DNA from: Pseudolabrys sp.
GTDB lineage: Bacteria; Pseudomonadota; Alphaproteobacteria; Rhizobiales; Xanthobacteraceae
Length of the DNA stretch: 64,000 nucleotides
Assembly (NCBI GenBank): GCA_030684935.1
Contig: JAUXXH010000016.1
Span: 1-64,000, forward strand
Reading direction: 5' to 3'
This document shows positions 38,306 to 44,733 of this stretch, in pieces. A program made the translations under genes and the position numbers. Position 1 is the first letter of the stretch. Each line of letters opens with the position of its first letter. The notes beneath the pieces are model-generated. The model had not been told where the DNA came from and made no database searches. It was given only the letters and a program-made list of their open reading frames with translations.

Positions 38306-38602
38306 TCATTCCGCCAGCGCCCGCGTGACTGCGGCCGGGTCGGATTGAACGATCTTTAGCAGAATGCGCGCGCTGCGCTCCGGATGCCGGCGGCCTTGCT
38401 CCCAGTCCCTCACCGCCGATAGCGCAAAGCCGTAGGTCGCGGCGAACGCCTGCTGCGACAGGCCGAGTTCCTTGCGGATTTTCTTGACGTCGATACTGTC
38501 GGGCACGTGCACGCGATAGCGCCGCTTGTCCGCGGTGCCATCCAGAAAAGCCCGCGCATCGTCGAGCCCCGCCTTGATCTTGTTGAATGCGCGCTTGCTC
38601 AT
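38306..38602 (-). CDS. HTH antitoxin (HigA/NadS-like)
   Basis: 98 aa. The C-terminal half is a Cro/C1-type helix-turn-helix (DVKKIRKELGLSQQAFAATYGFALSAVRDWEQGRRHPE). The short N-terminal arm resembles antitoxins of the HigA/NadS type. It starts within the toxin stop (ATGA overlap), in toxin-first order. It probably neutralises the toxin and represses the promoter upstream of the toxin gene. Confidence 0.85.
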   Translation of the reverse strand: MSKRAFNKIKAGLDDARAFLDGTADKRRYRVHVPDSIDVKKIRKELGLSQQAFAATYGFALSAVRDWEQGRRHPERSARILLKIVQSDPAAVTRALAE

Positions 38603-38958
38603 GAGTGTCTCCGGTAGTCATCCAGCATCTTTGCGATCTGTTTGGCTAAATCAGCGCGCTCCGCTGCCGTCAGGTCCGATTTTTCATTTTTGGCGAAAAC
38701 TGCCAGCAGAAAAACCGGCACGTCATCGCCGCCGAAAAGGTAGACCACACGTGCGCCGCCTCGCTTTCCGCGTCCGCCAAAACCGATTCGAAGCTTTCGA
38801 ATGCCCCCTGATCCCGGAACGACCACGCCGCATCGCGGTTCTGACGCAACGCGGTCAACGATTGCTGACCTCTCTGCTTCGGTAAACAATCGCTCTGCAT
38901 CGGCTAGGTAAGGCGGTGTTTCGACCACGGCCTGCACGGAAATCTCCATATACGGCAT
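38599..38958 (-). CDS. RelE/HigB-superfamily toxin
   Basis: 119 aa from ATG 38958, or 116 aa from 38949 (MEISVQAVVETPPYL). The segments GSGGIRKLRIGFGGRGKRGGARVVYLFGGDDVPVFLLAVFAKNEKSDLT match the COG4737-type RelE/HigB fold, with the basic and aromatic residues used to cleave ribosome-bound mRNA. It is the first gene of a two-gene operon with the HTH antitoxin. The pair lies between two 34-bp direct repeats. Confidence 0.85.
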   Translation of the reverse strand: MPYMEISVQAVVETPPYLADAERLFTEAERSAIVDRVASEPRCGVVVPGSGGIRKLRIGFGGRGKRGGARVVYLFGGDDVPVFLLAVFAKNEKSDLTAAERADLAKQIAKMLDDYRRHS

Positions 38959-38985
38959 TGCCGTAGTTGCTTCAAGGGCGGGCCC

Positions 38986-39019
38986 GCCGCCGACGAGTTG
39001 CGGAAGTATCTCTGACGCC
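38986..39019 (+). repeat. 34-bp direct repeat, right copy
   Basis: Second copy of the end of the SCO gene, differing by one base. It now supplies the altered C-terminal codons of the glycosyltransferase read on the minus strand. The unit bounded by the two copies is about 719 bp and contains only the toxin-antitoxin pair. Confidence 0.9.
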
Positions 39020-39824
39020 GTTCGAAGCTGGCGGCAGTTCGCCGCTCTCGTTCATCGCCTGGAGTTCGCGCTCCAGCGCCAGCAGCGCGCGCATGCGGCT
39101 GGCGGCGCGTCGCGACGTCCTGGCCAAACCGTGCTCGGTCTTTTCCCAGGCGTGGGGCGCGGTGATGAGTTGAAACAGCGCCCGCCATGCCGCCAGCGAC
39201 AGCAGCAGCCAGTGAACCGGCGTCAGGACCAGCACCCAGGCGGTTGAGGTCAGGCCGCGCCGTGACAGGCCGATCCAGCCGAGCAGGGCCGATGTCAGAT
39301 ATCCGATGACGATATTGGCGCCGTAGATCAGCGCCAGCGCCTTGGCCGTCGTGTTCTGGCTGTCCCACATTCCCGCCTCGCTCACCATCGCGTGGACAAG
39401 ACCGGCCATGAACAGCGGATGCACCAGCGCCGCCAGCACGTTGCCGCCAACGACAAGTTGAAAGGTGACAAAGCCCGCCGGGCCCAGATCGCGCAGCAGC
39501 CGTCGCGGCTGCCGCATGTGCACGCGCCAAGTCTGCATCCAGCCTTTGAACCAGCGGGTGCGCTGGCGAAGCCAGGGGCCGAATTGCGCCGGCGCTTCTT
39601 CATAGGTCGTCGAGGTGATCATGTCCGAGCGATAGCCGAACCGCGCCAGCCGCATACCGAGGTCGGCGTCTTCTGTGACATTCCAGGAGTCCCAGCCACC
39701 GGCCGCGCGCAAGGTCGCGGTGCGAAAGTGGTTGGACGAACCGCCGAGCGGGAGCGGCAGCCGCAGCGTGGCGAGGCCGGGCAGGAACACGTCGAACTGG
39801 CCGGCATAGTCGGCGGTGAACAAA

Positions 39825-39832
39825 CGTGCGAG
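39825..39832. repeat. 8-bp target-site duplication, left copy
   Basis: CGTGCGAG lies directly outside the left inverted repeat and again at 43562-43569 outside the right one. The 8-bp length is that expected for IS1595-family transposition. Confidence 0.92.
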
Positions 39833-39858
39833 CGGCCTTAGGTAGCAAATGCACCAAC
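39833..39858 (+). repeat. Left terminal inverted repeat
   Basis: 26 bases that match the reverse complement of 43536-43561 without mismatch. They contain the block GGTAGCAAATGCACCAAC. Confidence 0.95.
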
Positions 39859-39921
39859 TATTCTGCCGATATCCCCGGTCTGTTCGGCTACCGTTCCCGC
39901 TTATAACGAGCGGTGATTGCA

Positions 39922-39972
39922 ATGAAACCCTTCAAAGCGGCTAGGCTTCGCGGCGGCACGGGCCGCGCATGA
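39922..39972 (+). CDS. Possible 16-codon leader peptide
   Basis: ATG 39922 opens MKPFKAARLRGGTGRA, whose stop overlaps the ATG of the 145-aa gene (ATGA). TATAAC at 39902-39907 could be a -10 element, but no good -35 is seen. Translation of this peptide could couple to the next gene, which has no clear RBS of its own. The frame is too short for confidence. Confidence 0.3.
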   Translation: MKPFKAARLRGGTGRA

Positions 39973-40406
39973 ACGCCAAGGGCAACCAATACGCCATTCA
40001 CGCCTTGAAGGACCGCCGCGCCACGATGGCCGGGGAGATAGCCGCCTTCAAAGAGGCCATCCGGCACCGCGAAGAACAACTGACGCATCTGGACGCCACG
40101 CTGCGGGTTCTGGACCCCTCTTACAGGGTGGACACCATCCCGCCCAAGCGCCTCCGCAGGGTGAAGTTATTCGGGAGCGGGGAGTTGAACCGGCTGGTGC
40201 TGGACGCGCTGCGGCGCGCGGGCGGCAGGCCCATGACCAACGTGGAAATTGCCGACGCCATCATTACCGCCAAGGGCTACGGGCACGAGGCGCGGCACGC
40301 GCTTATTCGGCGGGTGCGGGCGAACCTGTCCTATCTGCTGCGGGAGCGGAACGCCGTGGTGAAGCAGGGCGACCGGTTGACGGCGCGTTGGGCGCTGCCG
40401 CGCTAG
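39969..40406 (+). CDS. Passenger protein, coiled coil plus winged-helix-like domain
   Basis: 145 aa, family not recognised. Residues about 10-48 (ALKDRRATMAGEIAAFKEAIRHREEQLTHLDATLRVLD) form a coiled coil. The C-terminal part (LNRLVLDALRRAGGRPMTNVEIADAIITAKGY...LIRRVRANLSYLLRERNAVVKQGDRLTARWAL) has the helix pattern of a winged helix with a basic wing, like many small DNA-binding repressors. It is the first gene inside the left end of the transposon. A regulator or structural DNA-binding protein is a guess. Confidence 0.7.
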   Translation: MNAKGNQYAIHALKDRRATMAGEIAAFKEAIRHREEQLTHLDATLRVLDPSYRVDTIPPKRLRRVKLFGSGELNRLVLDALRRAGGRPMTNVEIADAIITAKGYGHEARHALIRRVRANLSYLLRERNAVVKQGDRLTARWALPR

Positions 40407-40716
40407 CCTGTGTCTGCCGCTCTGATTCGCGGGCTGATTCGCCAAATCGCGAGTTATTTGTCGTCTTATGGCGGCAGTTAGTCGTGAAAAATGGCCGAAG
40501 CCACAGGTTTTTCAAGCCGCTAGATGTTGTGGTGCTTTAAGGGACTCGGTCTTGACCGCTTTACTACATCTTGTGCTTTAAGCGTTTAAACGGCTCTGTG
40601 AATAGCAAGGTTTTGTGTGGTCGGCCGTTGAATTATCCAAAGGAACCGTACATAAAGAAACGCCTCGCCCGTGAGGGCGAGGCGTCTTTGACGGCTAGAA
40701 GTCTTCAAAGATAGTC
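40407..40716. other. Non-coding stretch within the transposon
   Basis: 310 bases without a credible gene. Two direct repeats are visible: CTGATTCGC at about 40422 and 40432, and GTGCTTTAAG at about 40533 and 40572. A terminator-like hairpin lies at 40656-40690. An unrecognised small RNA is possible but not supported by more than this. Confidence 0.45.
40656..40690. terminator. Bidirectional terminator-like hairpin before the tRNA
   Basis: ACGCCTCGCCC (40660-40670) and GGGCGAGGCGT (40675-40685) form an 11-bp stem with a GTGA loop. TCTTTG follows on the plus strand and TTCTTTATG on the minus strand. It would insulate the tRNA-like gene from upstream transcription. Confidence 0.65.
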
Positions 40717-40807
40717 GGTCCGGTAGCTGAACTGGAAGACTGGCAAGTCGCACAGCACCCGATTTGTAATCGGGAGAATGTTGGTTCGAGTCCAACCCGG
40801 ATCGCCA
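40717..40807 (+). tRNA. tRNA-Thr(UGU)-like gene with enlarged D-loop
   Basis: Acceptor stem GGTCCGG pairs with CCGGATC (one G-T), discriminator G and encoded CCA. The anticodon arm is CCCGA-TTTGTAA-TCGGG, giving UGU (Thr). The variable loop is five bases, and the T-arm GTTGG-TTCGAGT-CCAAC is standard. The D-stem is GCTG/CAGC, but the loop has 23 bases and contains a small hairpin, GACT-GGCA-AGTC (40738-40749). Removing those 12 bases leaves an ordinary 11-base D-loop, AACTGGAAGCA. It is carried inside the IS element and has its own terminator. Whether it is charged and decodes is unknown. Confidence 0.8.
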
Positions 40808-40813
40808 CTTCTA

Positions 40814-40845
40814 GGGCTCCCTCGTAAGAGGGGGCCCTTTTCTTT
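40814..40845 (+). terminator. Intrinsic terminator of the tRNA-like gene
   Basis: GGGCTCCCTC and GAGGGGGCCC pair with one G-T around a GTAA loop, followed by TTTTCTTT. It starts 6 bases after the encoded CCA. Confidence 0.85.
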
Positions 40846-40896
40846 AGCGAACAAACGTACCGAATGTCGATTCGCTTTCCGTTAAAGAGTGTAAGA

Positions 40897-40934
40897 CAAT
40901 GCCCCTACATTGCAAATACAATGTGAACACATTG
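40897..40934. promoter_or_regulatory. Operator-like array of CAATGT half-sites
   Basis: Alternating half-sites CAATG (40897), ACATTG (40907), CAATGT (40919) and ACATTG (40929) are spaced about 10 to 12 bases apart and lie directly before the RHH-like gene. Such arrays are typical of self-regulating ribbon-helix-helix proteins. Confidence 0.6.
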
Positions 40935-40953
40935 CGTGTGCGGGGTGTGGACA

Positions 40954-41151
40954 ATGGCGGAGCCGAAGCCGTTTACAATCAATCTGCCTCGTCAAGCCCA
41001 TGAAATGATTGAGGAATTAATTGAGACTGGGTTGTATGGAGCCAATAGAGCCGAGGTTGCCCGCTCCCTTATTCTCGGTCGTCTAGAGCAACTGGTCGCC
41101 GGGCAAACGCTGGTAAGGGCGCGGACAAAGGACAGAGCATCCGCTTCTTAA
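40954..41151 (+). CDS. Small RHH-like DNA-binding protein
   Basis: 65 aa (MAEPKPFTINLPRQAHEMIEELIETGLYGANRAEVARSLILGRLEQLV...). A short strand (PFTINLP) followed by two helices is the ribbon-helix-helix pattern of CopG/ParD-type proteins. An array of inverted half-sites lies just upstream. No toxin gene follows; the next gene is the convergent transposase, so it is probably a stand-alone regulator of the element. Confidence 0.68.
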   Translation: MAEPKPFTINLPRQAHEMIEELIETGLYGANRAEVARSLILGRLEQLVAGQTLVRARTKDRASAS

Positions 41152-41162
41152 ATTGATGGCTA

Positions 41163-42128
41163 TCAAATACGCCGCTGCCAATATCCCTTCCAGTTCCGGC
41201 TGACCTTGTGATTGAGCGCCAGACCAAGTGCGCTATAGGTCAGCGCGCCGTTGTCGAGGCGGCTGTTATTCTCCAGCCAAGCGGCGTGCGCGGCGTACTG
41301 GTGAAGGTACTGCGGCGACACCGCGTGGTGCTGGCCATCCACCATGCGGCGAAGGCGTGAGAAAAACGACTCGGCTTGGTTCGTGCAGCTTTCACCGTTG
41401 CTGTAAGCGAGCGAGTGATTGACGCGGCCAACTTGCCAGCCAGCGTGCAGGGCATCCCAGTGCGAGGCTTCGTCAGCGTGCATCACCGCCATGCGGTCAA
41501 CAACGCGCTTGGCGATTTCAACGCCTTCGGCTTCGTGGCGAACCACTGACGTAAGCGTGCGACCCTTGCGCTGGCGCAGCGCGATCACCACGCGGCGCTT
41601 GCCGGTTTGATGCTGCGCCAAGCGGCGGTCAACGCGGTTTTCAGCCTTATTCGACGGACGGATATGACCTCCGAAATACGCGCCGTCGATTTCAACTTCG
41701 CCCGTCAGCGAAGCGCCGTTGGTTTCCGACGCGAGGGCTTCACGCAGTTTGTGCGCCAGCACGAAAGCGGTCTTGTGCTGGCAATCCAGATCGCGCGCCA
41801 ACTGCAAGGCGCTGATGCCCTTCGCAGCGTTGGCGATGATGCAGAGCGCGGCCAGCAGATCGACAAACGACATCTTGCGGCTGGCGAGGATGGTGCCGGA
41901 CGTGACCGAGAATTGCTTGCCGCAGGCAGCACACTTGAAGCGGCGGCGCGTGGTGATCTCGTAGGCATCAACACCGCCGCAGTGCGGGCAGACCGCTTCG
42001 CCATCTGTGTTCGGCCAGCGCAGCTTGCGGAAGGTCGTGTAAGCCTTCTCCTCGCCACCGGCATAGATCGCCTTGAGGCTAAGGGTGCGGGCGGCGGCAG
42101 AAAGGAGAAAATGTTGGGCCATTGTCAT
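41163..42128 (-). CDS. IS1595-family transposase
   Basis: 321 aa. An N-terminal zinc ribbon (Cys47, Cys50, Cys66, Cys69) is followed by a helix-turn-helix-like region (GISALQLARDLDCQHKTAFVLAHKLREAL) and an ISXO2-type DDE domain. The likely catalytic residues are Asp148 (GEVEIDGAYFGG), Asp219 (VMHADEASHWDAL) and Glu253 (TNQAESFFSRLRR). It is full length and intact, so the element may be active. Its start codon lies inside an 18-bp repeat that recurs before the DUF6471 gene. Confidence 0.93.
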   Translation of the reverse strand: MTMAQHFLLSAAARTLSLKAIYAGGEEKAYTTFRKLRWPNTDGEAVCPHCGGVDAYEITTRRRFKCAACGKQFSVTSGTILASRKMSFVDLLAALCIIANAAKGISALQLARDLDCQHKTAFVLAHKLREALASETNGASLTGEVEIDGAYFGGHIRPSNKAENRVDRRLAQHQTGKRRVVIALRQRKGRTLTSVVRHEAEGVEIAKRVVDRMAVMHADEASHWDALHAGWQVGRVNHSLAYSNGESCTNQAESFFSRLRRMVDGQHHAVSPQYLHQYAAHAAWLENNSRLDNGALTYSALGLALNHKVSRNWKGYWQRRI

Positions 42129-42142
42129 CGCATCCGGTGATA
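42125..42142. promoter_or_regulatory. Operator-like repeat over the transposase start codon
   Basis: TCATCGCATCCGGTGATA matches 42191-42208 at 16 of 18 positions. The transposase start (reverse-complement ATG at 42126-42128) lies inside it, so a bound protein could block initiation. A second palindrome, GGTGA-TATTGT-TCACC, overlaps its right side. Confidence 0.6.
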
Positions 42143-42190
42143 TTGTTCACCAGATATCGCGATGGACTTCCCCACATGCAAGTATTATTA

Positions 42191-42208
42191 TCATCGCATC
42201 TGATGATA
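42191..42208. promoter_or_regulatory. Operator-like repeat before the DUF6471 gene
   Basis: TCATCGCATCTGATGATA lies within the palindrome TTATCATC-GCATCT-GATGATAA, 16 bases before the GTG start of the DUF6471 gene. It is a second copy of the repeat covering the transposase start. Confidence 0.65.
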
Positions 42209-42223
42209 ATTTAGGAGCTCGCC

Positions 42224-42481
42224 GTGGCCAAAAACTCCTTTAAAGACAATCCCTTAACGCAGGAATACGAGGAAAAGGCCAAAAACCTACTCAAATCGGA
42301 GCTAAAGCGTCGTGGCATCGGCTACCGGGAGCTTTCGGAAAAGTTGGCGGCTCTCGGCTTACAGGAGACGGAACGCAACCTCGCCAACAAGATCAGCCGT
42401 GGCGGCTTTTCGGCGGCTTTCTTTCTCCAATGTCTTGGAGCAATCGGGTGCACCACACTCAGGACGGCCGATGCCGACTAA
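42224..42481 (+). CDS. DUF6471 protein
   Basis: 85 aa from GTG 42224 with TTAGGAG upstream. The pattern AKNLLKSELKRRGIGYRELSEKLAALGLQETERNLANKISRGGFSAAFFLQCLGAIG is the DUF6471 family, which has the helix arrangement of a small helix-turn-helix protein (the RELSEKLAALG and NLANKISRG segments). It is divergent from the transposase and flanked by matching operator repeats, so a repressor of itself and of transposition is the simplest hypothesis. Confidence 0.8.
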   Translation: MAKNSFKDNPLTQEYEEKAKNLLKSELKRRGIGYRELSEKLAALGLQETERNLANKISRGGFSAAFFLQCLGAIGCTTLRTADAD

Positions 42482-42484
42482 GTC

Positions 42485-43447
42485 TTATTCGTCAAACAGG
42501 CTCGATTGCTTTGCTATTGGCCCAGCAGGGACAAACCGAATTACCTCCAGAACCTTATAGGACGGTTCGCCCTTCTTTCCCGCGCTATCAATTTCGGTCG
42601 TGATTTCTAGCTTCACTTGGTAGGCGTCCTCGACCATCGCGCCGCCGCGCTCCAAGGCTTCGTGAGCAATGTTCGTCTCAGATATGTCGGCGTAGATAAC
42701 ATCCTTGCCGAGTCTGAAACGCCAGCTAGGCGCGCGCTCATCATAAACGGGCGAGTAAACGCTGAGCCATGCAGGGGTGACTTCGACTTCCGGCTCCGTT
42801 TCCTTCGTCTCTTCGATACCGACGTTGCATGAAGCAACGATGTGCTCAACGTCGTCGTCCTTTATTTCGTCAACTACAACGTCGCCTTCCTTAAGTTGAA
42901 CCGTGTCAAACCCCTCCTGACCAAGAGGCAGAAGGGCGTCCCTGGTGGCCCTTAATGCCTTCGGATTTTCCGCTAGGTTGTAAATATGCTGGTGCACATG
43001 AACTGTGGCGTCGTCGCCCTGTATTCGGACCTCGACGGTCCCGGTTCTGTCAGAGTCAATTAGCGGAGTGACAGACTCAATTTTCCGACCGCGCCGCCAT
43101 TTTAAATACGCCAAGTAAGTCCCGGCGACCGTCGCGGGAGGCCCGCCTAATATACCAACCCACTCAAGGACGTTCTTGGCTGACTGGGCCTGCTCGGTCG
43201 AAAGCAGCTGCCGAACCTGCTCGTACAGGCCAACAACCAGCTCAAAATTAATATTGAAGCATTTATGCTCAAAGTCAGAGACAACCAACACCTTGGCGGT
43301 CGACTTCTTGCCGTTAAATTCCGAGTTTGCCTCGCGAAGAAGACGGCCAAAAGCCAGCAGCGCAGGCGCTAGCGTTTGCACGTCGATCGAATGATCGTCA
43401 CCGCGATCCTTGCCCAAATAGGCAACGGAAAACTCATGCCTGCTCAT
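42485..43447 (-). CDS. Unknown 320-aa passenger protein
   Basis: 320 aa from ATG 43447 (MSRHEFSVAYLGKDRGDDHSIDVQTL), with GGGG upstream. The N-terminal 100 residues look like a compact alpha/beta domain (LLAFGRLLREANSEFNGKKSTAKVLVVSDFEHKCFNINFELVVGL). A hydrophobic stretch (WVGILGGPPATVAGTYLAYLKW) may be a membrane helix. A C-terminal beta-rich half follows. I have the impression that similar proteins exist in other proteobacteria, but I know of no function. It is convergent with the DUF6471 gene and transcribed inward from the right end. A CCCCCCAG-AGTA-CTGGGGGG hairpin (43485-43504) stands upstream. Confidence 0.75.
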   Translation of the reverse strand: MSRHEFSVAYLGKDRGDDHSIDVQTLAPALLAFGRLLREANSEFNGKKSTAKVLVVSDFEHKCFNINFELVVGLYEQVRQLLSTEQAQSAKNVLEWVGILGGPPATVAGTYLAYLKWRRGRKIESVTPLIDSDRTGTVEVRIQGDDATVHVHQHIYNLAENPKALRATRDALLPLGQEGFDTVQLKEGDVVVDEIKDDDVEHIVASCNVGIEETKETEPEVEVTPAWLSVYSPVYDERAPSWRFRLGKDVIYADISETNIAHEALERGGAMVEDAYQVKLEITTEIDSAGKKGEPSYKVLEVIRFVPAGPIAKQSSLFDE

Positions 43448-43535
43448 GGCAGGCCCCTTATCATCTTCGGCCAAGAACCACCCTCCCCCCAGAGTACTGG
43501 GGGGATAGTCGCACAACCTAGGGGCGATGGGAACT

Positions 43536-43561
43536 GTTGGTGCATTTGCTACCTAAGGCCG
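43536..43561 (-). repeat. Right terminal inverted repeat
   Basis: 26 bases forming a perfect inverted copy of 39833-39858. It is followed directly by the second target duplication CGTGCGAG at 43562-43569. Confidence 0.95.
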
Positions 43562-44733
43562 CGTGCGAGCCAGCTGTCGCCGGTGTTGTCGATGCAGAGC
43601 CGCGCCTGCACGCACGCCAAATTGTCGTCACCGGCTGCGAACGCCTGCAAGGCGCGGCGCAGTTGGTTGGGTTCCGGCCTGTCCTCCGCGTCATAGACCG
43701 TCGCGAACGTGCCATGCGCAAACGGCAGCGCAACGTTGAGGGCCTTCGGCTTGGTGCGCGGGCCGCCGCTCGGCACCGGAATTACCGTCACCGGCAGGCG
43801 ATGAATGCGCGCGGCCAGCGCGGCGCGCGTTTCGCGGTCGTCGGCTTCCACCGCAATAATCAGATCGATTTTCTCGCGCGGATAATCGAGCCGCTCGAGC
43901 GCCGACAGCAAGCCGTCGACCGAGGCTGCTTCGCGGTACAGCGCGGCGATCACGGTGTAGACCGGCAGCGTGTCGTCGCCGCCGCCGGCCATCGGCGGCG
44001 GTCCGGGCTGCTCGAGCGTGGCGCAAAACAGGCGCAGGCCGAGCCAGGCCAGAAATACCGCGGCCAGCATCAGTTCGCAGGCGAGCAGAGTGATGCCGGG
44101 TGCGGCCGCGGCGGCCGCCAGCGTCAGCAGCCCGGCGGCCAGGACCGGCCATCGCGTGCCGCGCTTGGCCGATGGCGCGGCCGACAGCATCGGCCACACT
44201 TGCGCCAGCCGCTCCGCGGCGCGTGCGGCGATCGCCTGGCTTGCATGGCGCAGCACGAAACCGTTGAGCCGCGCCGCGCTGGTGAAGCAGAACCGGCGCG
44301 CCTGGGCGGGGTCGTCGTCGACAAGGCGCAGCAGTCTCCGCGTTGCCTGGCCGCGCGGGGCCACCACCAGGCGCAAACCGTCGCCCTCAATCAGCGGCAG
44401 CAGCCCGGCGGCGGCGGCGTCGATCAGCCGCTCGTCGCTCAGCGGGCACCGATCGCGCGAGACGCGGTCGAGCGGCTCAAACGCCACGCGGGTAGCGGCA
44501 CCAAGCGCGCGCAGGTAGTCGTCCTCACCGACGGCGCCGGCGGCGATCAGAGCCCGGTCGGCGCCAAAGCCGGTCTTGTCCGCTCGGTCCTCCGCGGCGG
44601 CGATGATGCCGGGAGCCAGCATCGGCCGCATGCAGTCGACCTCGGGAAAGCGGCTCGCGGGTGGACGACCGGCCGCGCCGCCATGAGGCCACAGGTCGGC
44701 GCGGGCCGCTCCGGTGCCAACTCCCGCCTGCAT
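43562..44733 (-). pseudogene. GT2 glycosyltransferase, N-terminal part (split by IS element)
   Basis: About 390 codons. The N-terminal region resembles the MshEN/GSPII-E-like domain found before some GT2 enzymes (PLSDERLIDAAAAGLLPLIEGDGLRLVVAPRGQATRRLLRLV). After two membrane helices the GT2 domain begins (LPVYTVIAALYREAASVDGLLSALERLDYPREKIDLIIAVEADDRETR and VYDAEDRPEPNQL with the metal-binding acidic residues). The frame stops just after the insertion point (GDSWLARGLR). The start may be 44733 or the Met codon at 44631. It would have synthesised or exported a surface polysaccharide; product unknown. Confidence 0.88.

Follow-up and report, generated by a model that had tools for sequence, protein, structure and literature searches.

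Target choice guided by a dedicated protein is best known from Tn7, and comM is said to be inactivated in Acinetobacter by the mobile element AbaR. The IS1595 family of insertion sequences comprises the ISPna2, ISH4, IS1016, IS1595, ISSod11, ISNwi and ISNha5 groups. Members with passenger genes were reportedly described by Siguier et al. 2009. In the part of the family's description available to us, its elements usually hold a single transposase gene (PMC8101967). For the Tn7-like Tn6022 and the non-Tn7 element Tsy, the available part of another account has TnsF targeting the Walker B motif of comM (PMC10293859), and a third, likewise partial source on mobile elements that inactivate comM names integrases or Tn7-type machinery and no IS1595 transposase (PMC4774983). 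Here we describe an IS1595-family transposon of 3,729 bp (39833-43561) in a 64,000-nucleotide stretch of Pseudolabrys sp. DNA, hereafter the window (GenBank contig JAUXXH010000016.1, positions 1 to 64,000; contig C38 of a 3.67-Mb assembly). The element splits a glycosyltransferase (GT) gene, and its small winged-helix protein (wHTH), compared across related elements, is likely a modular TnsD/TnsF-like target selector for the IS1595 transposase.

A complete transposon in a glycosyltransferase gene

The inverted ends of the element (IR-L and IR-R) are the same at 26 of 26 bp, with the sequence CGGCCTTAGGTAGCAAATGCACCAAC, and CGTGCGAG stands outside each. The transposase is a full-length IS1595 type, with matches to DDE_Tnp_IS1595 (PF12762, 125.3 bits, cut-off 27) and NF033547 (139.8 bits, cut-off 75), together with an N-terminal zinc ribbon (Zn_ribbon_IS1595, PF12760, 59.2 bits, cut-off 25.4). 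The perfect ends, 8-bp duplication and intact transposase described in the original prediction are borne out by these data, and the DDE domain, the zinc ribbon and the terminal inverted repeats with their duplication place the element in the IS1595 family. From left to right, the genes encode the coiled-coil/winged-helix protein (+), a tRNA-like RNA (+), a ribbon-helix-helix-like (RHH-like) protein (+), the transposase (-), a DUF6471 protein (+) and a LAPAL-family protein (-).

Joining the GT halves with one copy of the duplication gives an open frame of 692 codons, which encodes 674 aa when counted from its first Met, with the junction reading GDSWLARLFTADYAG, as had been described earlier. 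The N-terminal half of GT is matched in 39 of 43 genus genomes (own included), many of them with single frames of 660-750 codons, and the usual state of the gene is therefore intact; in another genus genome, G276, a GT copy is cut at the same place. The proposal of a complete, recent cargo transposon splitting this gene is supported, and the element is a complete, apparently recent, cargo-bearing member of its family.

Insertions recur at five codon positions in two host genes

Matches to the end pattern were found in 9 of 198 genomes of the host family, own included, and in 93 stretches of a named genome collection; among the 80 listed, the informative titles were those of Alphaproteobacteria. 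The sample analyzed consists of 31 complete elements, including that of the window, each bounded by two ends and by duplication copies that differ at one position at most; near misses such as L025 and L138 fall outside this count. The copies are identical in 30 of the 31, and L081 has one mismatch.

Twenty of the 31 elements lie in two host genes, 12 in GT homologs and eight in comM/yifB, at five fixed codon positions. The GT sites are A (DSWL/AR, reference residue 394; window and L123), B (GGxSN/HF, residue 428; L021, L095, L127, L144 and L145) and C (LDYP, residue 287; L079, L092, L114, L128 and L142, with L092 off by one base). Those in comM are site 1 (ELLEVSM, residue 260; L081, L101, L124, L125 and L161) and site 2 (LDELP/EF in Walker B, residue 324; L084, L102 and L129). 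By simple arithmetic, random insertion would put about 0.03 of 31 insertions into the two genes (~3.6 kb of a ~4-Mb genome). With five exact sites recurring in two host genes, insertion is, from the sequences compared, evidently not random; a chance hit on a polysaccharide gene was rejected.

Codons for L021, L079, L092, L128, L084 and L129 were read manually from the site sequences and not by automatic frame choice; the ends of L021 and L129 were placed at GT 429 and ComM 324. In L021, L092 and L128 the profile test recognized GT on one flank only; the other flank of L021 contains the 36 codons that separate site A from site B, and that of L128 reads as the end of a second element. Both orientations occur at GT_B, GT_C and comM_1. 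Among 63 unique single ends, a junction-profile test placed nine more in GT and five in comM.

The winged-helix protein tracks the insertion site

For the 20 targeted elements, the nearest relative by wHTH shares the site in 19 cases by identity and in all 20 by alignment score. The corresponding counts are 8/20 for the transposase, 5/13 for DUF6471, 10/20 for IR-L, 6/20 for IR-R, 8/20 for the 40 bp from IR-L to wHTH and 3/20 for the 40 bp before IR-R. None of 1000 label shuffles reached the observed value for wHTH; 40 did for the transposase, 47 for DUF6471, 6 for IR-L, 176 for IR-R, 54 for the IR-L-to-wHTH stretch and 669 for the stretch before IR-R. Given these shuffle values, parts other than wHTH are also weakly clustered by site. 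Across the elements, wHTH type and site go together, and the transposase, DUF6471, end repeats and neighbouring DNA follow the site far less.

Each of the five sites forms a single clade in the wHTH tree (support GT_B 98/98, GT_C 100/99, comM_1 89/87, comM_2 89/89, GT_A 100/100), and this tree needs four site changes, the fewest possible, a value that 0 of 200 shuffles reached. When three elements at other sites were added, 5 changes were counted on the wHTH tree versus 13 on the transposase tree; this 23-element comparison left out L132 and elements with a wHTH below 120 aa or a transposase below 250 aa, L022, an exception discussed below, being among those dropped. Elements L128 and L145 have transposases 97% identical, wHTH proteins 23% identical and different sites (C vs B), and L142 and L128, with transposases at 76% and wHTH proteins at 58%, share a site. 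The wHTH type co-varies with the site independently of the transposase.

The nearest wHTH also had the element's own site in 8/8 held-out elements (L270, L115, L036, L083, L058 at 1007, L039, L286 and L104 at 5464), of which L058 at 1007 and L104 at 5464 adjoin main-set elements. This run had 26 rows, 17 with no GT/comM site detected and 9 with one, among which L110 was excluded: it is an additional wHTH-like frame at the opposite end of the L145 element and aligns over only 37 aa. In genome G093, two elements interrupt one GT gene ~36 codons apart; they differ in wHTH type, and each occupies the site that its type predicts. The one at site A has variant ends and a transposase only 47% identical to that of the window. 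These patterns argue for wHTH as the target selector that brings the IS1595 transposase to the recurrent GT codon, a role that we hold to be likely.

Several elements weigh against such a role. L022 has a GT_A-type wHTH but lies elsewhere, with a broken transposase and a drifted helix 3; L068 and L132 have a comM-type wHTH with no comM seen at the flank; L088 has a GT_C-type wHTH with no GT found by BLAST, though its flank codons resemble site C by eye; and L026 and L100 have GT_B-like wHTH fragments at other places. In addition, matching duplications were partly a condition of selection. The exceptions may be due to off-target insertion, to decay or to divergence of the flanks.

The wHTH gene usually starts ~70 nt inside one end, and elements exchange parts; for example, the transposases of the window and L123 are 92.6% identical in DNA and their DUF6471 genes 69%. 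Both points fit hitch-hiking, in which each site was invaded once and the end-proximal gene was kept as the rest recombined, so that wHTH would mark descent, not function. However, elements stand in opposite orientations at three of the sites, duplications vary from one species to another in keeping with the codons of each host, IR-L (10/20) and the DNA between it and wHTH (8/20) track the site much less, and the wHTH of L084, internal and reversed, yet groups with comM_2. The match between duplication copies within an element is no independent evidence here, at most one mismatch having been set as a condition. On the orientations, host-codon duplications, weak IR-L tracking and L084, hitch-hiking of an end-proximal gene was rejected, and we regard it as quite unlikely.

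Duplications are richer in AT midway than their surroundings, 'other' sites included, and target labels cluster to some extent on the tree of transposases, as would be expected if the transposase preferred AT-rich 8-mers in GC-rich DNA, with survivors piling up in two dispensable genes and wHTH serving as an ordinary repressor. Such a preference does not accord with the exact codon recurrence within each gene, with transposases 96-97% identical at different sites, or with a nearest-neighbour accuracy of 8/20. Specificity encoded by the transposase was rejected, and we consider it very improbable.

Core genes and layout

Among the 31 elements, 30 have a transposase or a piece of one, 29 a ~145-aa wHTH and 20 a DUF6471 gene, and the usual layout runs from one end through wHTH, slot A, transposase, DUF6471 and slot B to the other end. 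The original prediction had counted five passengers. Cargo is present, but wHTH and DUF6471 recur across related elements and are therefore core genes, not passengers; in the elements compared, both belong to the machinery and cargo occupies slots A and B. The predicted DUF6471 protein (111 bits), ~320-aa protein (NF053583) and RHH-like protein (weak matches only) are all present, whereas the six-gene set does not hold as a unit, the whole set being found in 0 of 30 other elements. Coordinates of all features are given in Table 1.

The structure model of wHTH (AF2) shows a winged helix with pLDDT 88.4. The protein had no match at E 0.1 to any family of Pfam, NCBIfam, PADLOC or PHROG, and the same profile libraries gave no sequence homology to the TnsD, TniQ or TnsF families. 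A profile search gave 1,319 homologs; none of the 120 shown has a Pfam domain listed. The five proteins of the element include no TnsA, TnsB, TnsC or TniQ by Pfam scan, in which only the IS1595 transposase domains and DUF6471 scored above cut-off.

Table 1 Features of the transposon and the split host gene, in window coordinates
Feature	Position	Strand	Evidence
Split GT, C-terminal part, host gene	38972..39832	-	PF13632 56 bits
Left copy, 8-bp target duplication CGTGCGAG	39825..39832	.	sequence
Left inverted repeat IR-L, 26 bp	39833..39858	+	identical to IR-R
Coiled-coil + winged-helix protein (wHTH), 145 aa, core gene, predicted target-site selector	39969..40406	+	homologs in relatives, AF2
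tRNA-like gene, anticodon UGU, expanded D arm	40717..40804	+	Rfam RF00005 57.6 bits
D-arm hairpin insertion, 15 nt (GACU-GGCA-AGUC-GCA)	40738..40752	+	covariation
Intrinsic-terminator-like hairpin + T run after tRNA	40813..40848	+	sequence; weak below-cut-off Rfam match, same-shape hairpin
Ribbon-helix-helix-like (RHH) protein, 65 aa, tRNA partner	40954..41151	+	weak below-cut-off NCBIfam CdrS/ParD matches
IS1595-family transposase, 321 aa, core gene	41163..42128	-	PF12762, PF12760, NF033547
DUF6471 protein, core gene in 20/31 elements	42224..42481	+	PF20075 111.4 bits
LAPAL-family cargo protein, 329 aa (P0001)	42485..43474	-	NF053583, PADLOC PDC-S42
Right inverted repeat IR-R, 26 bp	43536..43561	-	identical to IR-L
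Right copy, target duplication CGTGCGAG	43562..43569	.	sequence
Split GT, N-terminal part, host gene, cut at site A	43562..44733	-	PF13641, PF00535; intact genus homologs

A tRNA-RHH cassette as cargo

The tRNA-like gene noted earlier proved real by its Rfam match, though it was missed by ARAGORN, and its CCA is encoded at 40805-40807. The D-arm hairpin is inserted after A21; across five sequences, 3 of its 4 pairs change on both sides and 90% of cells are paired, the innermost pair being unpaired in two. Rfam detected a tRNA in 6 of the 31 complete elements (window, L101, L102, L114, L123 and L065) and in 2 of 47 further loci scanned, the single-ended elements L149 and L032. Four elements (window, L101, L102 and L114) have the RHH gene, in 4/4 with the tRNA upstream on the same strand, 124-158 nt apart, and this tRNA-RHH cassette is cargo. 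Related tRNAs with no recognizable ends nearby are followed by an RHH gene in G091, by homology, and by an RHH-like frame in G346, by eye. The window-type D-expanded tRNA occurs in the window, L101, G091, G346 and 2 of 4 viral contigs holding the pattern, both CGU. In these viral contigs, the D-expanded CGU tRNA genes lie on the minus strand of L171 (~7680) and L173 (~830), and some nearby frames are terminase- or portal-like by eye.

The C2-G71 pair is a determinant for bacterial threonyl-tRNA synthetase and occurs in the host's own three Thr tRNAs. The tRNA of the window has G2-U71 instead, and the prediction is that this enzyme would use it poorly. The tRNAs of L102, L114 and L149 combine a tRNA-Ser body, each of the top five body matches being Ser, with the anticodons CCU, UUA and GAU; in the same body test against the window host's 41 tRNAs, 25 of 33 host tRNAs were placed with their own amino acid. 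ARAGORN confirmed GAU for L149 and reported no tRNA in L102 and L114, whose anticodons were read from the cloverleaf. If charged, these three tRNAs would be predicted to put serine at AGG, UAA and AUC/AUU codons, respectively. The L114 element genes end in TAA, TAA, TGA, TGA and TGA, and this stop usage, the only measure applied, gave no signal of UAA readthrough.

A complete cloverleaf with a UGU anticodon, an encoded CCA and a terminator-like hairpin would also befit a spare tRNA-Thr(UGU) with no functional oddity. We find that reading doubtful: the host already has Thr tRNAs for CGU, GGU and UGU, none of the three is among the closest by body, the Thr pair is replaced by G2-U71, the D-arm hairpin covaries, and the Ser bodies with CCU, UUA and GAU anticodons in other elements are unlike spare tRNAs. 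A bold reading of the cassette would have the RHH protein restrain a mis-decoding tRNA.

Other cargo and related loci

The LAPAL protein of the window matches NF053583 at 162.7 bits (cut-off 60) and PADLOC PDC-S42 at E 4e-46; it is known as a profile only, named a putative phage structural protein by NCBI and PDC-S42 by PADLOC. Its structure model combines a body of moderate confidence with an OB-fold at the C terminus, and the profile match makes it a candidate defence gene. Titles and abstract openings in the open-access literature, with subscription papers outside this scope, gave no function for DUF6471 or PDC-S42. Of the other 30 complete elements, L127 alone has LAPAL, and three (L101, L102 and L114) share the tRNA-RHH cassette. 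LAPAL was found in 6 of 296 host-family genomes, the window genome included; of the other five loci, one has kept an end repeat, another has a fragment of DUF6471, a third adjoins a full-length comM frame, and two have neither. These loci are compatible with gene retention after transposon decay and prove no function. At L213 (5189-6223), a solo LAPAL gene, 83% identical, lies directly beside a full-length comM frame with no element ends.

Two elements of one genome, L021 and the one at site A (L058), each carry a type IIG restriction enzyme, and L128 and L145 have N6/N4 methyltransferases; an Mrr-type nuclease domain, detected in 2 of 70 scanned proteins, was confirmed in L128. Further cargo includes a SocA-like antitoxin (L022), a helix-turn-helix (HTH) protein with an IrrE-type peptidase (L142), a Tle1-like protein with an HTH protein (L144) and Bro-N/DinD proteins (L127 and L161). 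Several slot-B proteins, scanned singly, matched no family.

L074 (near 632 and 4004) and the genome of L047 (near 533) and L121 (near 2636) have a homologous gene cut at a similar place, CAGATTTG and CAGATCTG, possibly a third repeated target. The element at GT site A in L058 (1007-6698) has ends of a second type within this family, CGGTATTATGGCGCAAACGCCACAA; a further element lies at site C around 5464 of L104; and L111 (356-3285) has an insertion within a short tandem repeat of gagccaattc units. In the window, an HTH_3 protein and a RelE-like protein (PF06296, E 4e-8), probably a toxin-antitoxin pair, are encoded next to each other outside the element at 38306-38958 (-), adjoining the C-terminal part of GT. 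The host genome has five more IS1595-type transposases (contigs C15, C59, C14, C9 and C12), with 27-36% identity to that of the window.

Discussion

In the mechanism we propose, the winged helix of wHTH would bind target DNA around the conserved motif, its long N-terminal helix would dimerise or contact the transposase, and a swap of the wHTH gene alone would re-address the transposon. The addresses would be dispensable genes, hence a benefit: loss of comM would hinder removal of the element by transformation, loss of GT would alter a surface sugar, and defence-type cargo may benefit the host. More broadly, we lean towards a Tn7-independent, two-part form of addressing, in which an interchangeable 145-aa wHTH re-aims an IS1595 transposase at a conserved codon motif of a host gene, the wHTH and TnsF converged on the comM Walker-B motif, and the self-addressing elements spread defence genes, together with tRNAs that are expanded or have a swapped anticodon, among Alphaproteobacteria.

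A search of titles and abstract openings in the open-access literature found no IS1595 target selector described, subscription papers lying outside its scope and an earlier description being possible. If a compact non-Tn7 DDE transposon does have a one-gene selector, modular addressing evolved more than once, the convergence of unrelated elements on comM becomes easier to explain, and a small swappable targeting module is at hand. The site choice of a small transposon becomes a question of gene swaps, and the element family marks out a path for the movement of restriction systems, candidate defence genes and odd tRNAs.

The window element resembles the IS1595 family, as set out in the available part of its description (PMC8101967), in its zinc-ribbon and DDE_Tnp_IS1595 transposase, inverted ends and 8-bp duplications; its group differs in a core wHTH, often DUF6471, two cargo slots and a strong site preference. 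Its LAPAL protein matches the NF053583 and PDC-S42 profiles, the window member being transposon cargo. With the comM-inactivating elements its group has in common that comM is a repeated insertion site across species. With Tn7-like elements and Tsy, as partially described (PMC10293859), it would share a dedicated, exchangeable selector, and the same comM Walker-B region (comM_2, FLDELPEF) is used by unrelated machinery. It differs from Tn7-like elements in that the predicted selector is a 145-aa winged-helix protein, with insertions flanked by 8-bp duplications and found in both orientations.

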